Assembly: GCF_030127105.1 (NCBI RefSeq)
Contig: NZ_CP126161.1
Location: 1,426,001 to 1,490,000 of the forward strand
Reading direction: 5' to 3'
Source of the DNA: Haloarcula pelagica
Lineage (GTDB): Archaea > Halobacteriota > Halobacteria > Halobacteriales > Haloarculaceae
DNA: 64,000 nucleotides
Part shown: positions 27,026-31,738 of the stretch, one piece after another
How the letters are laid out: each line of letters starts with the position of its first letter
Position numbering within the stretch: the stretch's first letter is position 1
Translations under genes and position numbers: made by a program
Notes under the pieces: model-generated
Seen by the model: the letters and a program-made list of their open reading frames with translations, nothing else
Databases searched by the model: none
What the model was told of the DNA's origin: nothing

Positions 27026-27490
27026 ATGGCAGACGAAGCCATCGACGACGTGGACCGGGCGATCCTCCACGCGCTCCAGGAAGACGCACGCAACATGTCT
27101 TCGGGGGACATCGCCGAGCGGACCGGAACGTCGGACAGCACCGTCCGCAAGCGGATCCAGCGGCTCGAATCCGACGGGATGATCAAGGGGTACAGCGCCG
27201 ATGTCGACTACCAGAAGTCGGGCTACCCGCTGCGGATGTTGCTGTTCTGTACCGCGGCGATCCCCGAACGCGGCGATCTCATCCCGGCGATCCTGGAGAT
27301 CGACGGCGTCGTCTCCGTCCAGGAACTGGTCACCGGCGAGCAGAACCTCCTGATCACCGTCGTGGGCGAGTCCGACAGCGACATCACCCCGGTCGCACAG
27401 GAGTTGTTGAACATGGGCCTGACCGTCGCCGACGAGGTGCTCGTCCGGAGCCACGAGACCAAACCGTTCGGCGAGTTCGGGCCCGAGTGA
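27026..27490 (+). CDS. Lrp/AsnC-family transcriptional regulator
   Basis: 154 residues. The N-terminal winged helix ('LDDVDRAILHALQEDARNMSSGDIAERTGTSDSTVRKRIQRLESDGMI' shape) reads DNA; the C-terminal RAM domain (about residues 65-145) with 'VTGEQNLLITVVGESDSDIT' binds a small molecule. Known family members control amino-acid and carbon metabolism. It lies upstream of the dab genes, in the same direction, and could act on them, but no binding site is proven. Confidence 0.85.
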   Translation: MADEAIDDVDRAILHALQEDARNMSSGDIAERTGTSDSTVRKRIQRLESDGMIKGYSADVDYQKSGYPLRMLLFCTAAIPERGDLIPAILEIDGVVSVQELVTGEQNLLITVVGESDSDITPVAQELLNMGLTVADEVLVRSHETKPFGEFGPE

Positions 27491-27870
27491 CGACAGTAGC
27501 GGCGTCGGAGACAGCGATCGGCGAGACGGTCGCCGCCACAACCACGTCTAGCCCCCCGAACGGTACCGATCCGTTCTTCGTTCGCTGCTGTGCGAGCAGT
27601 CTGTGAACGCGTGTCGGCCACCCCTGACCAGGTCCCGCTGCGCGGACGACGACAGTGAGACCACGAGCGACGGCTGTCGCCAGCCGCGAGCACACGCCGA
27701 CCCAACATCGCCTGCAAAAACATAATGTTCTATAATACCAGTTTCTTCGAACAGATTGATCGAATAGAAATCTTTAATGCACAGTCTGTTCGTCAATACG
27801 AGTGAAGTCGACCAGGACCGGTCCCCGGGGCCGCCGGCTCCGGGCAGGTCGCTGTCGACCACAGCCAACG
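27491..27870 (+). promoter_or_regulatory. intergenic region with promoter of dabB
   Basis: 380 bp without a convincing gene. The first 200 bp are GC-rich with an exact hairpin CGGCTG-TCGC-CAGCCG at 27671-27686. The rest is AT-rich: palindrome AACATAATGTT (27719-27729), inverted TTCGA...TCGAA (27746-27764), and a TATA-like TTTAAT (27773-27778). A start site about 26 bases after that TATA would fall at about 27800, right at an in-frame GTG (27802), so a leaderless start is possible. Confidence 0.5.
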
Positions 27871-29358
27871 ATGACAGAACACGACCACTCGACGACGATT
27901 GGACAACTCCCGGAACCGACGGAATCGACGCCGGTCACGCCCCGAGCGCTCACCCGAGCCGTCTGGCTCATGTGGGTGGCGAGTCTGGGCGTCCTAGCCG
28001 CGGCCCTCGGGACCGGCGGCGCCTGGGAGTTCGGTGGCGTGGTCGCCGTCGACGGACTGACGGTGTTGCTGTGGGTCGTCGTGACCTTCTTCAGCGGTAT
28101 CGTCCACAGCTACTCCCGGCGCTACATGGCCGGGAGCAAGGACCTGACGCGGTTTTTCACCCGTGTCTTCGGCTTCACGCTCGCGGTGATGGTGCTCGTC
28201 GCCGCCGACCACGTCGCCCTGTTCGGGGTCGCCTGGCTGGCGATGGGGCTGGCGATGGCGTCGCTCATCGGCTACGTCGACGGCTGGCCACAGGCACAGG
28301 CCGCGGCGACGCTCGCCCGCCGGTACTTCCTCGCCAGCACCGCTTTGCTGGCGGTCGCGCTGGGCGTGCTGTCCTGGGCGACGGGCGAGACGGCCGTCTC
28401 GGAGATCGTGACCGCCGTCGACACCGTCCCGACGGTCCCCTGGGTCGTCGCGGTGGTGGCGCTGGTGGGTGCGGCGATGATCCAGTCGGCACTGGTCCCG
28501 TTTCACTCCTGGCTCCTCTCGTCGATGACCGCACCGACGCCCGCGTCGGCGCTGATGCACGCCGGGTTCGTCAACGCCGGCGGCGTCCTGCTGGTCCGGT
28601 TCGCGCCCGTCGTCACGCTCGACCCGACCGTCATGCTCGGGATCGCGGTCGTCGGCGCCACGAGCGCGTTACTCGGGAAACTCCTGAAGACCGTCCAGAC
28701 GGATATCAAGCGGAAACTGGGCTGCTCGACGGTGGGCCAGATGGGCTTTATGCTCCTCCAGGCCGGCCTGGGCTTTTTCGGCGCCGCGATCACGCACCTG
28801 ATCCTGCACGGGTTCTACAAGGCCTACCAGTTCCTCTCCTCGGGCGAGCAGGTCGAGCAGACCGCGCCCGCGAAGACGGGGACGGCGGCCGACCCCAGCG
28901 CCGTCGGCCTGATCGTGACCGCCGTGACCGCCGTCGCCGGCGGCGCGCTGTTCGCGGTCCTCACCGGGAAAGGGACGAGCTTCGACACCGGCCTCCTGCT
29001 GGCCGGCCTGGTCTCGCTGACGACCCTGCACGCGACCCGGACCGCCGTCGGCCACCGCGGGCTCCCGACGACGGTCCGGTACGTCGTCGCCCCGCTGGTC
29101 TTCCTGGCCGGGATCACCGTCTACGCCGGGGCGTACACCGCCGTCACGGCCGTCCTGGCACCGCTTCCGCTCGGATCGCCCCCGACCGAACTGACCGCCG
29201 TCCACGGCGTCCTCGCCGCCGCGTTCGCGCTGGCGTACGTCGCCGTCGACACCGGTGTCTACGAGCGCAGCACGCGCCTGTACGTCGCGCTCGTCAACGC
29301 CGCACAGCCCGCAGCCGGTACCCTGCTGACCGACACGGAGGACTACAATGAGTACTGA
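27871..29358 (+). CDS. dabB: DabB, proton-conducting membrane subunit (NuoL-like)
   Basis: 495 residues with about 13 membrane helices. It belongs to the NuoL/MrpA family: 'SYSRRYMAGSKDLTRFFTRVFGFTLAVM' and 'LVPFHSWLLSSMTAPTPASALMHAGF' are the conserved proton-channel segments, followed by 'LLGKLLKTVQTDIKRKLGCSTVGQMGFML'. In DAB systems DabB couples the proton gradient to DabA. It overlaps dabA by 11 bases. An in-frame GTG at 27802 could add 23 residues, but they are Arg-rich and unlike the family. Confidence 0.85.
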   Translation: MTEHDHSTTIGQLPEPTESTPVTPRALTRAVWLMWVASLGVLAAALGTGGAWEFGGVVAVDGLTVLLWVVVTFFSGIVHSYSRRYMAGSKDLTRFFTRVFGFTLAVMVLVAADHVALFGVAWLAMGLAMASLIGYVDGWPQAQAAATLARRYFLASTALLAVALGVLSWATGETAVSEIVTAVDTVPTVPWVVAVVALVGAAMIQSALVPFHSWLLSSMTAPTPASALMHAGFVNAGGVLLVRFAPVVTLDPTVMLGIAVVGATSALLGKLLKTVQTDIKRKLGCSTVGQMGFMLLQAGLGFFGAAITHLILHGFYKAYQFLSSGEQVEQTAPAKTGTAADPSAVGLIVTAVTAVAGGALFAVLTGKGTSFDTGLLLAGLVSLTTLHATRTAVGHRGLPTTVRYVVAPLVFLAGITVYAGAYTAVTAVLAPLPLGSPPTELTAVHGVLAAAFALAYVAVDTGVYERSTRLYVALVNAAQPAAGTLLTDTEDYNEY

Positions 29359-31738
29359 CCCAGCGATTCGTGAGAGTATCGAGCGTGCAGCAGCCCCCGT
29401 CGGCCGTGCGTGGCCGCTTCACTCGTTCGTGACCGCCAACCCCCTGGCGGGGTTCGAGGACGAACCGTTCCCCGAAGCCGTCCGGAAGGGGGCCGACCGC
29501 TTCGGCGGCGACGGCTACCCCGACCCCGACGTGTTCGAGGCGGCGTTGGCGGACGGCCGGATCGACACGGAACTCCTGACCGACGCGCTGGCCGAACACG
29601 GCTGTGAAACCGATCCGGAGGCCACGCTCGACCGCATGCGTGAGGCACCGTCGGACGACGCCGAGACCGCCGAGGAGACGCCGACCGACCGCGTCGACGC
29701 CGTACTGACGAAGTGGCTCGCCGCCTTCCTCGACGAGGGTCAGGCGACGTGGCCGATGCCCGACCGTGAACAGGGGTTCTTCGCCGCCTTCCACGCGGCC
29801 GCACAGCACGACGGCGAGATTCCGGAGACCGACACCATCGCGGCTCTCCCCGACGAGCCGATCGACGCGCTCCACCACCTGCTGGGGACGATCCCGCCGG
29901 GCGAGTGGGAGGACCTGTTCGAGTACCACCTGACCGCGCTCCCCGGCTGGACCGGCTACGTCAAGCAGCGCGCGGCCGACGGCGGCGAGTGGCAGTCGTC
30001 GTACCCGATCACGCTCGCGGGCTATCTCGCCGCCCGCCTGGCGCTGGTCGAGGCGTTCGACGCGCCGCTGGAACCGCCGACCGAGGACGACGCCACCGAC
30101 GACGACGACACGATCGCGATAGCCGAGGCGTGGCTGAGCGCCTGGGAGGGGACCTACCGCGGCGAACTGGTCGAGGCTGTCGCCGACGAGAGCGCCGCCC
30201 GGGACTCCGACGACGGCCGTCCGGACGCCCAGTTCGTCTTCTGTATCGACACGCGCTCGGAGGTCGTCCGCCGCCACATCGAGGCGACGGGCGACTACGA
30301 GACCCACGGCTACGCCGGCTTCTTCGGCGTGCCGATGCGCTACGAGGGGTACGACGCCGACGTGGCCGTCGACGCCTGCCCGCCGATCGCCGACGCAGAG
30401 CACCGTATCGCGGACCGGCCGAGCACGGGCGAAGACGCGAAACAGCACGCACACGACCACCAGCAACACACCGTCGGCGCCGGCCAGAAGGTCCTCAAGA
30501 AACTGAAGTCCAACGCCGCGACGGCGTTCAGTTTCGTCGAGAGCGCCGGGGCGGGCTACGGGGCCGCGCTGGCGGCCCGGACGCTCCTGCCCGCTCGCGT
30601 CGCCGACGCCATCGACACTGTGGACGACGCGCCAGAAGACCACGAGTTCTGTGCGCCGACGGTCGACTACAACCCGGACGCGGTCGCGGCGCTCCGCGAG
30701 GGGCTCACCCACGAGGAGAAAGTCGAGTACGCCGAGACGGCGTTCGACCTGATGGGCTGGGAGCAGTTCGCCCGCGTCGTGGTCTTCGCCGGCCACGCCA
30801 GCGAGACCGCGAACAACCCCTTCGAGTCGAGTCTGGACTGTGGCGCCTGTGCCGGCAACCCCGGCGGTCCGAGCTCCCGCGTGCTGGCGGCCATCTGCAA
30901 CGACGGGGCCGTCAAGGCCGACCTCCGCGAGCGCGGGTTCGACATCCCCGAGGACACCGTCTTCGTCGCCGGCGAGCACAACACGACCACCGACGAGGTG
31001 ACGCTGTACGACGGGTCGGTCCCCGAGAGCCACGCAGCCGACCTCGAACAGCTCGAAGCGGACCTCGACACCGCACAGTCGACGGCGACCGCAGAGCGGA
31101 CCGACGCGGACGACAGCGTCCGCGAGACCGAGCGCCGCGCCGCCGACTGGGCCGAGACTCGCCCGGAGTGGGGACTGGCCGGCAACGCCGGGTTCGTGAT
31201 CGGTCCCCGTGCCCTCACCGAGAACCTGGATCTCGACGGCCGCTCGTTCCTCCACTCCTACGACTGGGCGACCGACCCCGCCGGCGACGACCTCGAAGCG
31301 ATCATGGCCGGCCCGATGGTCGTCACCCAGTGGATCAACACCCAGTACTACTTTTCGACGGTCGATCCGGCCGTCTACGGGAGCGGCTCGAAGGTCACGC
31401 AGAACCCGGTCGGGAACGTCGGCGTCTATCAGGGCAACGGCGGTGACCTGCTGACCGGCCTCCCGCTGCAGTCGGTCCACGCCGCCGACGACGAACCGTA
31501 CCACCAGCCCCTTCGCCTCTCGACCGTGATCCACGCGCCCGTCGAGCGCGTGACCGACATCCTCGCGGAGAACGACGAGGTCGCAGAGCTACTGGACAAC
31601 GGCTGGCTCTCGCTGACGGTCGTCGACCCCGAGCAGGAGCACCGCGCGTTCCACTACGACGGCGACCTCGAGTGGACCACCGAGGAAGCGGCGACGAGCG
31701 TGACGACGCCGACTGTGACATCGCCGGCAGACGACTAG
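29348..31738 (+). CDS. dabA: DabA, DUF2309 inorganic-carbon accumulation subunit
   Basis: 796 residues, the usual DabA length. DabA works with DabB to take up and hydrate CO2 by way of a carbonic-anhydrase-like zinc site. The zinc site residues are visible: Cys299 and Asp301 (FCIDTRSE), His483 (FAGHASE) and Cys498 (DCGACAGNP). Spacing His to Cys is 15, as in characterised bacterial DabA. The signature 'AWPLHSFVTANPLAGFE' near the N-terminus is also typical. Most DAB systems are known from bacteria; homologs in haloarchaea are known but their role in heterotrophs is unsettled. Confidence 0.9.
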   Translation: MSTDPAIRESIERAAAPVGRAWPLHSFVTANPLAGFEDEPFPEAVRKGADRFGGDGYPDPDVFEAALADGRIDTELLTDALAEHGCETDPEATLDRMREAPSDDAETAEETPTDRVDAVLTKWLAAFLDEGQATWPMPDREQGFFAAFHAAAQHDGEIPETDTIAALPDEPIDALHHLLGTIPPGEWEDLFEYHLTALPGWTGYVKQRAADGGEWQSSYPITLAGYLAARLALVEAFDAPLEPPTEDDATDDDDTIAIAEAWLSAWEGTYRGELVEAVADESAARDSDDGRPDAQFVFCIDTRSEVVRRHIEATGDYETHGYAGFFGVPMRYEGYDADVAVDACPPIADAEHRIADRPSTGEDAKQHAHDHQQHTVGAGQKVLKKLKSNAATAFSFVESAGAGYGAALAARTLLPARVADAIDTVDDAPEDHEFCAPTVDYNPDAVAALREGLTHEEKVEYAETAFDLMGWEQFARVVVFAGHASETANNPFESSLDCGACAGNPGGPSSRVLAAICNDGAVKADLRERGFDIPEDTVFVAGEHNTTTDEVTLYDGSVPESHAADLEQLEADLDTAQSTATAERTDADDSVRETERRAADWAETRPEWGLAGNAGFVIGPRALTENLDLDGRSFLHSYDWATDPAGDDLEAIMAGPMVVTQWINTQYYFSTVDPAVYGSGSKVTQNPVGNVGVYQGNGGDLLTGLPLQSVHAADDEPYHQPLRLSTVIHAPVERVTDILAENDEVAELLDNGWLSLTVVDPEQEHRAFHYDGDLEWTTEEAATSVTTPTVTSPADD

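Follow-up and report, generated by a model that had tools for sequence, protein, structure and literature searches.

A DAB inorganic-carbon locus in the RuBisCO-free haloarchaeon Haloarcula pelagica, with a linked Lrp-type regulator, a putative three-box operator and a probable leader hairpin

Introduction

What purpose a DAB inorganic-carbon system might serve in an archaeon without RuBisCO, and how its genes might be controlled, is the question raised by a locus of Haloarcula pelagica in which a gene for an Lrp/AsnC-type regulator is followed by dabB and dabA, all on the + strand according to the list of open reading frames. The locus occupies positions 27026-31738 of a stretch of 64,000 nucleotides (contig NZ_CP126161.1, positions 1,426,001 to 1,490,000), which is referred to here as the window. 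A preliminary description of this DNA had noticed the DabAB pair next to the Lrp-type regulator and had stated that bacterial DAB systems serve CO2 fixation. This statement was too narrow, since heterotrophs such as Staphylococcus aureus use a DAB homologue for the supply of anaplerotic bicarbonate (PMC8567241; this and all other papers are cited from excerpts of their text), and both heterotrophs and Euryarchaeota are listed among the carriers of DAB (PMC13144422).

We consider it probable that the locus represents a RuBisCO-free haloarchaeal DAB system, in which proton-driven hydration of CO2 would feed carboxylases, a dedicated Lrp-type protein would act on three operator boxes and the transcript would carry a hairpin leader. 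The analysis was based on the Haloarcula pelagica genome (4.46 Mb, 99.96% complete), on 121 dabA loci (80 named, 40 unnamed and the window; species are partly repeated and 113 loci are distinct) and on two genome samples with 13 genomes in common, namely 60 relatives, 42 with and 18 without dabA, and 145 genomes of the class. At the level of sequence, this comparison supports the identity of the proteins and their residues, the linkage of Lrp, boxes and dab, and a structure signal in the leader; the ion used by the DAB pair and its physiological role we infer.

Results

Identity and Conserved Residues of the DabA-DabB Pair

Judged from its proteins, the window locus is a DAB (DabA-DabB) inorganic-carbon system with an intact pair. 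In Pfam searches the open reading frame of DabA matched PF10070 over the full model, while that of DabB matched Proton_antipo_M and Proton_antipo_N, so that PF00361 lies next to PF10070. The sole PDB match of DabA at 0.001 was DabA2 (9rd0_A, 5.9e-110), and the top PDB match of DabB was DabB2 (9rd0_B, 1.8e-40). The start codon of dabB is likely the ATG at 27871 rather than the GTG at 27802, because the start context AACGATG is common to most relatives. At G013:C1:354448-356684 and G002:C1:1046017-1048211 dabA was found in two pieces, which suggests decay of the copy or a sequencing error.

Residue roles in both subunits were taken from PMC13144422, and positions were transferred by alignment to DabA2 and DabB2 of Halothiobacillus. 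The zinc site that the preliminary description had reported as kept (C299, D301, H483 and C498) was confirmed in this alignment, in which the ligands C299, H483 and C498 correspond to C351, H524 and C539 of DabA2 and the Asp-Arg dyad D301/R303 to D353/R355. Moreover, E398 corresponds to the Glu of the membrane-inserted finger (E444), and H544, D549, R605, W608 and L610 correspond to H585, D590, R653, W656 and L658, respectively. The zinc ligands, the dyad, E398, H544, R605 and L610 were invariant in all 113 distinct haloarchaeal DabA proteins, and variation was found at D549 (Ala in four) and W608 (Ile or Leu in four). The claim that DabB keeps its proton channel is correct for the seven proton-path positions S256, H260, K310, S316, H339, H343 and K347, which carry S, H, K, S, H, H and K in the window and which 112-113 of 113 relatives keep (L092 alone departs, its match covering no more than part of DabB), but it needs to be qualified for four ion-pair positions (see Discussion).

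Carboxylating Enzymes of the Host

The absence of RuBisCO from the window, from which the preliminary description had suspected a purpose other than RuBisCO-based fixation, extends further, as a profile search found no match to RuBisCO (PF00016) in either the window or the whole Haloarcula pelagica genome. A search of the rest of the genome for carboxylating enzymes, which had been proposed at the time, revealed one phosphoenolpyruvate (PEP) carboxylase and two carboxyltransferases, and the profile for the epsilon subunit of glutamate mutase matched once. We take the latter enzyme to be a marker of the methylaspartate cycle, one step of which is the carboxylation of propionyl-CoA. Given these enzymes and the lack of RuBisCO, the DAB pair likely serves to supply heterotrophic carboxylases with bicarbonate, while participation of DAB in RuBisCO-dependent fixation was rejected for this host. 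Among the 60 relatives RuBisCO was detected in 15 genomes (11 of the 42 with dabA and 4 of the 18 without) and was thus no commoner in the presence of dabA.

Linkage of the Lrp-Type Regulator to dab

The Lrp-type protein contains an AsnC-type winged helix-turn-helix (HTH) domain (PF13404, 53.2 bits at a cut-off of 27), and no AsnC effector-domain match was obtained in Pfam at 0.001. A structural model built from 31 orthologues showed the element order of an HTH followed by a RAM domain (beta-alpha-beta-beta-alpha-beta), at a low confidence with a mean predicted local distance difference test score of only 59.8. When this low-confidence model was used in Foldseek, 44 PDB matches at E<=0.001 were returned, with full-length matches to Lrp/AsnC structures on top, including the halophilic Lrp 8q90.

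The assignment of this regulator to dab, which had initially been based on its position in the window, is now supported by comparison across genomes. An Lrp gene with 69-93% identity of its product was located upstream of dabB, and in the same direction, in 116 of the 121 dabA loci. The five loci without it comprise four second dab copies, in which dabA and dabB are divergent, and L144 (G045), where the contig ends approximately 1 kb upstream of the operator. These second dab sets (L142, L146, L149 and L150, in four genomes of the genus Haloarcula) lack operator boxes as well as Lrp. With orthologues defined by an identity of at least 69% (the next paralogues reach at most 49%), the 60 genomes were divided into 39 with both Lrp and dabA, 3 with dabA only, 1 with Lrp only and 17 with neither; the corresponding numbers by genus were 9, 2, 1 and 14. 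This co-occurrence was significant in Fisher's test by genome (5e-11) and by genus (2e-4), although relatedness is not fully removed from either value. The exceptions with dabA include G058, where the contig starts inside lrp and 71% identity is found over the last 72 residues, and G007, where no Lrp was found and dabA itself is a fragment at the end of a contig. In the dabA-less genome G044 (L173:6623-10061), the gene of an Lrp orthologue with 69-70% identity converges on a CO-dehydrogenase-type gene (PF03063) and on one encoding a MinD/CooC-like ATPase, an arrangement hinting at a wider C1 role of the orthologue; three box matches were scored in G044, none of them in the promoter of the CO-dehydrogenase-type gene. 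In addition, an amidohydrolase-like gene (approximately 338 aa, minus strand) lies between lrp and dabB in 36 of the 113 distinct dab loci.

A Putative Three-Box Operator Upstream of dabB

The region upstream of dabB contains three 13-bp boxes of the GAAC-N5-GTTC-like type, whose centres are 30-31 bp apart, with a TTTAAT element between boxes 2 and 3 (Table 1). The preliminary description had drawn attention to a promoter with AACATAATGTT, and this motif does matter. Exact or one-mismatch copies of it are expected 0.01 times per window by chance. It belongs to box 1, and the other two boxes had gone unnoticed.

Table 1. Positions of the genes and of the predicted control elements in the window.
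Feature	Position	Strand	Remarks
lrp	27026..27490	+	Lrp/AsnC-type regulator, 154 aa; HTH_AsnC-type 2.6e-14; orthologue dabBA-linked across haloarchaea
Operator box 1	27718..27730	-	Position weight matrix (PWM) score 22.3; contains AACATAATGTT at 27719-27729
Operator box 2	27749..27761	+	PWM score 16.4, composite match; centre 31 bp from box 1; just upstream of the region of the TFB recognition element (BRE) and TATA element
TATA-like TTTAAT	27773..27778	+	Lies between boxes 2 and 3; an alignment of 75 upstream regions gives 1.5-2.0 bits at each position
Operator box 3	27779..27791	-	PWM score 13.6; follows the TATA-like element directly; 30 bp between the centres of boxes 2 and 3
Predicted dabB leader hairpin	27802..27862	+	Consensus outer stem 27809-27815 with 27845-27851; z of the window leader -2.41
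dabB	27871..29358 (alternative start GTG 27802)	+	NuoL-like membrane subunit, 495 aa; Proton_antipo_M 2.8e-39
dabA	29348..31738	+	Beta-carbonic-anhydrase-like zinc subunit, 796 aa; PF10070 3.1e-261; overlaps the end of dabB

A degenerate two-box pattern gave 92 mostly GC-rich matches in the genome, was unusable for a regulon search and was replaced by a stricter composite pattern, a 43-bp frame that spans boxes 2 and 3, includes TTTAAY and has 15 fixed positions. Of 107 distinct Lrp-linked loci, 81 carry this frame upstream of dabB without mismatch, 22 with one mismatch and 3 with two (106 in total); in the remaining locus it is one base longer (44 bp). As controls, 105 lrp upstream regions never had fewer than 4 mismatches to the frame and the four Lrp-less second dab copies never fewer than 5. 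Autoregulation of lrp via the same boxes was rejected on the basis of the first control and of the presence of one scored box in 3 of 107 lrp upstream regions. Since the loci first used for counting the pattern were also those from which it had been derived, scans of the two genome samples without any mismatch allowed represent the fairer test. Exactly one match each was obtained in 31 of the 60 relatives, and 30 of these matches lie 1.55-1.70 kb upstream of dabA, while the remaining one, in G011, is next to lrp where the contig breaks off. Likewise, 51 of the 145 class genomes contained one match each, in every case 1.61-1.70 kb upstream of the start of the dabA profile match on the same contig and strand; 13 of these 51 matches come from genomes shared with the 60 relatives, and some of the rest may belong to species already represented among the named loci. 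No match was found in any dabA-less genome of the two samples, and a reversed pattern gave none in every genome listed. One family of loci (f7), including those of G041, G057 and their relatives, carries a variant form of the TATA element. In summary, these results support the view that Lrp, boxes and dab, as far as their sequences can tell, belong together across haloarchaea.

Archaeal Lrp proteins are known to bind dyads, for example a 13-bp palindrome, that are spaced by two or three helical turns; their binding immediately upstream of the BRE leads to activation, and in the case of Pyrococcus furiosus LrpA, binding immediately downstream of the TATA element leads to repression (PMC2995911). 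The length, spacing and dyad form of the boxes, as well as their positions relative to TATA and BRE, fit these rules. Because boxes 2 and 3 occupy the position of archaeal Lrp activation and that of LrpA repression, respectively, we propose a dual switch.

A Predicted Hairpin in the dabB Leader

The leader, approximately 70 nt from box 3 to the start of dabB, probably forms a conserved hairpin. Over 76 loci the mean folding z against shuffled sequences was -1.82, with 30 leaders below -2, compared with means of +0.18, -0.71, -0.02 and +0.35 in four control regions. In 53 leaders, a stem of 10 pairs was able to pair in 81.9% of the cells versus 73.9% in shuffled alignments and 20-46% in slid versions, and the covariation score was 0.351 versus 0.216; none of 500 shuffles reached the pairing or the covariation value. 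These 53 were selected from 73 leaders, the 20 omitted being near-duplicates and Haloarcula leaders with a weak outer stem, and the stem was drawn after the alignment had been seen. When all 76 leaders were aligned automatically, the effect had the same sign but was weaker (74.2% versus 67.0% of the cells, reached by none of 200 shuffles). RNAalifold proposes just four of the 10 stem pairs, and no Rfam family matched positions 27490-28000 up to an E-value of 1.

Discussion

Proposed Mechanism and Points Against It

The haloarchaeal DAB pair would act in a brine with scarce dissolved CO2. The inward passage of protons through DabB would power DabA to hydrate CO2 in one direction only, and the resulting bicarbonate would feed PEP carboxylase and propionyl/acetyl-CoA carboxylase, the propionyl reaction being part of the methylaspartate cycle. 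The adjoining Lrp-type protein would be a dedicated regulator that binds as three dimers, one per box, on the same DNA face and around the TATA element. A switch that works in both directions, depending on occupancy or on a ligand, would be expected, with box 2 in the activating and box 3 in the repressing position, and the transcript would carry the hairpin leader ahead of the dabB start. That the adjoining Lrp binds the boxes, together with the direction of control and the ligand sensed, we infer. More tentatively, and with considerable doubt, one may envisage that this Lrp-derived switch senses CO2 or bicarbonate (or a carboxylation product), that the three-box operator serves both to recruit and to block the basal machinery at a single genomic promoter, and that the hairpin adds control at the RNA level. 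If true, this would constitute a class of inorganic-carbon regulators unrelated to the LysR regulators beside bacterial dab genes.

Several observations weigh against the mechanism proposed here. The four NuoL-type ion-pair positions of DabB (I151, R182, D185 and K235) are occupied by L, L, T and Q in the window, and Gln is present at position 235 in 111 of the 112 haloarchaeal DabB proteins that have a residue there. Since these positions are required for full activity of DAB2 (PMC13144422), the coupling in haloarchaeal DabB may differ from that in DAB2. Position 235 in transmembrane helix 7 (TM7) is, however, Lys in four, Arg in three, Ala in one and Pro in one of nine bacterial plasmid DabBs, and DabB of Staphylococcus pettenkoferi has G, L, W and P and thus none of the NuoL-type residues. 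Because bacterial members also vary or lack residues there, we do not take the ion pair as defining for DAB and regard its replacement as a difference rather than a defect. The missing ion pair, shared with Staphylococcus pettenkoferi, would also suit a sodium-coupled bicarbonate importer, as proposed for MpsAB of S. aureus, in place of a proton-driven vectorial carbonic anhydrase. Haloarchaeal cells live in molar sodium. Sodium use has been argued for MpsAB (PMC13144422). Nevertheless, such an importer seems unlikely here, as a plain bicarbonate symporter would have no need of the zinc, Asp-Arg and Glu residues on which CO2 hydration in DAB2 depends, all of which are invariant, and variation at TM7 (K, R or A) occurs in other bacterial DabBs as well.

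A second group of observations concerns carbonic anhydrase (CA). The Haloarcula pelagica genome contains one intact beta-CA gene, and a beta-CA was found in 37 of the 42 genomes with dabA and in 12 of the 18 without, so that with ample CO2 the DAB system may be redundant. The same figures led us to reject DAB as a replacement of carbonic anhydrase. A frame change close to the contig start disrupts a second beta-CA gene of Haloarcula pelagica (L179:2010-2720). As bicarbonate alone need not explain DAB in genomes with beta-CA, and as MpsAB originally received its name as a membrane-potential generating system (PMC8567241), the pair might serve pH homeostasis or the generation of membrane potential and not carbon supply. 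This appears very improbable to us, because true beta-CA genes (CSDSR) adjoin dab in 11 of 113 distinct loci, which ties it to inorganic carbon, and because no ion-homeostasis gene family recurs among the 22 commonest neighbour clusters, as judged from example sequences. In six further loci (L048, L059, L101, L105, L107 and L128) a CA-like protein without CxDxR is encoded between lrp and dabB (Pro_CA 5e-6 in L101); both groups of CA neighbours were sorted by hand and set apart from antisense open reading frames over lrp.

With regard to control, the lrp promoter is devoid of the boxes, and 41 of the 92 class genomes with dabA have no match to the strict pattern. Two more Lrp paralogues with 41-46% identity are encoded in the Haloarcula pelagica genome, so another regulator could own the boxes. 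In G045, the third genome with dabA only, dab and operator are present with neither lrp nor the amidohydrolase gene in the approximately 1 kb of contig upstream. Along with the Lrp of G044, found beside CO-dehydrogenase-type genes in the absence of dabA, the box-free lrp promoter and the boxes of G045 could mean that a different factor reads the boxes, the neighbouring Lrp being either uninvolved or responsible for other genes. We regard this as quite improbable in view of the co-occurrence of Lrp and dabA, the confinement of strict boxes to dab loci in both genome samples, and the agreement of box length, spacing and dyad form with Lrp. As for the leader, only 25 of 76 sequences show at least 5 of the 7 outer pairs in the automatic alignment, in which many columns are gapped and the window leader has 0 of 7, and the minimum-energy fold of the window leader is in a different register from the consensus outer stem.

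Comparison With Known Systems

Haloarchaeal dabAB genes are already known. HVO_2410 and HVO_2411 of Haloferax volcanii are dabA and dabB of a predicted CO2 transporter (PMC8305020), and a haloarchaeal YbcC-NuoL clade has been described (PMC5700660). These are the same genes as in the window, and the excerpts of both descriptions name no Lrp gene, boxes or leader. No paper on a dab-linked Lrp, on the boxes or on the leader was found in the open-access full-text literature, subscription papers and preprints being outside the search. What is new seems to be the control region (Lrp link, three-box operator and leader); within that same literature we found no description of how archaeal inorganic-carbon supply is controlled. 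One regulator with one target promoter, three evenly spaced boxes and a probable leader hairpin in many haloarchaeal genera would make a clean testable system, and the dab switch is open to test because Haloferax and Haloarcula are genetically tractable. Such work would show whether Lrp proteins, known mainly as sensors of amino acids, can serve inorganic carbon.

DAB2 of Halothiobacillus neapolitanus (PDB 9rd0) and the haloarchaeal pair have in common the zinc ligands, the Asp-Arg dyad, the finger Glu, most tunnel residues and the seven DabB channel residues. In contrast to DAB2, the pair in the window is found in a host without RuBisCO, has L/L/T/Q in place of I/R/D/K at positions 151/182/185/235, and is associated with an Lrp-type regulator and an archaeal promoter. 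S. aureus MpsAB resembles haloarchaeal DAB, as viewed here, in being a DAB homologue that provides anaplerotic bicarbonate in a heterotrophic host. However, according to PMC8567241 MpsAB and carbonic anhydrase 'rarely coexist', and the frequent presence of haloarchaeal DAB beside beta-CA (37/42 genomes) runs counter to this view, which is based on staphylococci.

Similar to what is proposed for the dab operator, Ss-LrpB of Sulfolobus solfataricus uses three dimer sites over approximately 100 bp on one face of the helix and is a dual activator and repressor (PMC2995911), but it acts on its own gene, while the haloarchaeal lrp promoter has no boxes. In bacteria, a divergent LysR gene lies beside dabB in 6 of the 8 plasmid dab loci that have DabB directly upstream of DabA, and the same pattern has been reported earlier in a study that, within archaea, confines the pair to Haloarchaea (PMC5700660). 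Thus, bacterial dab operons and the haloarchaeal locus both have a regulator gene directly beside dabBA, which in the former is of the LysR family and divergent, and in the latter of the Lrp family and in the same direction.

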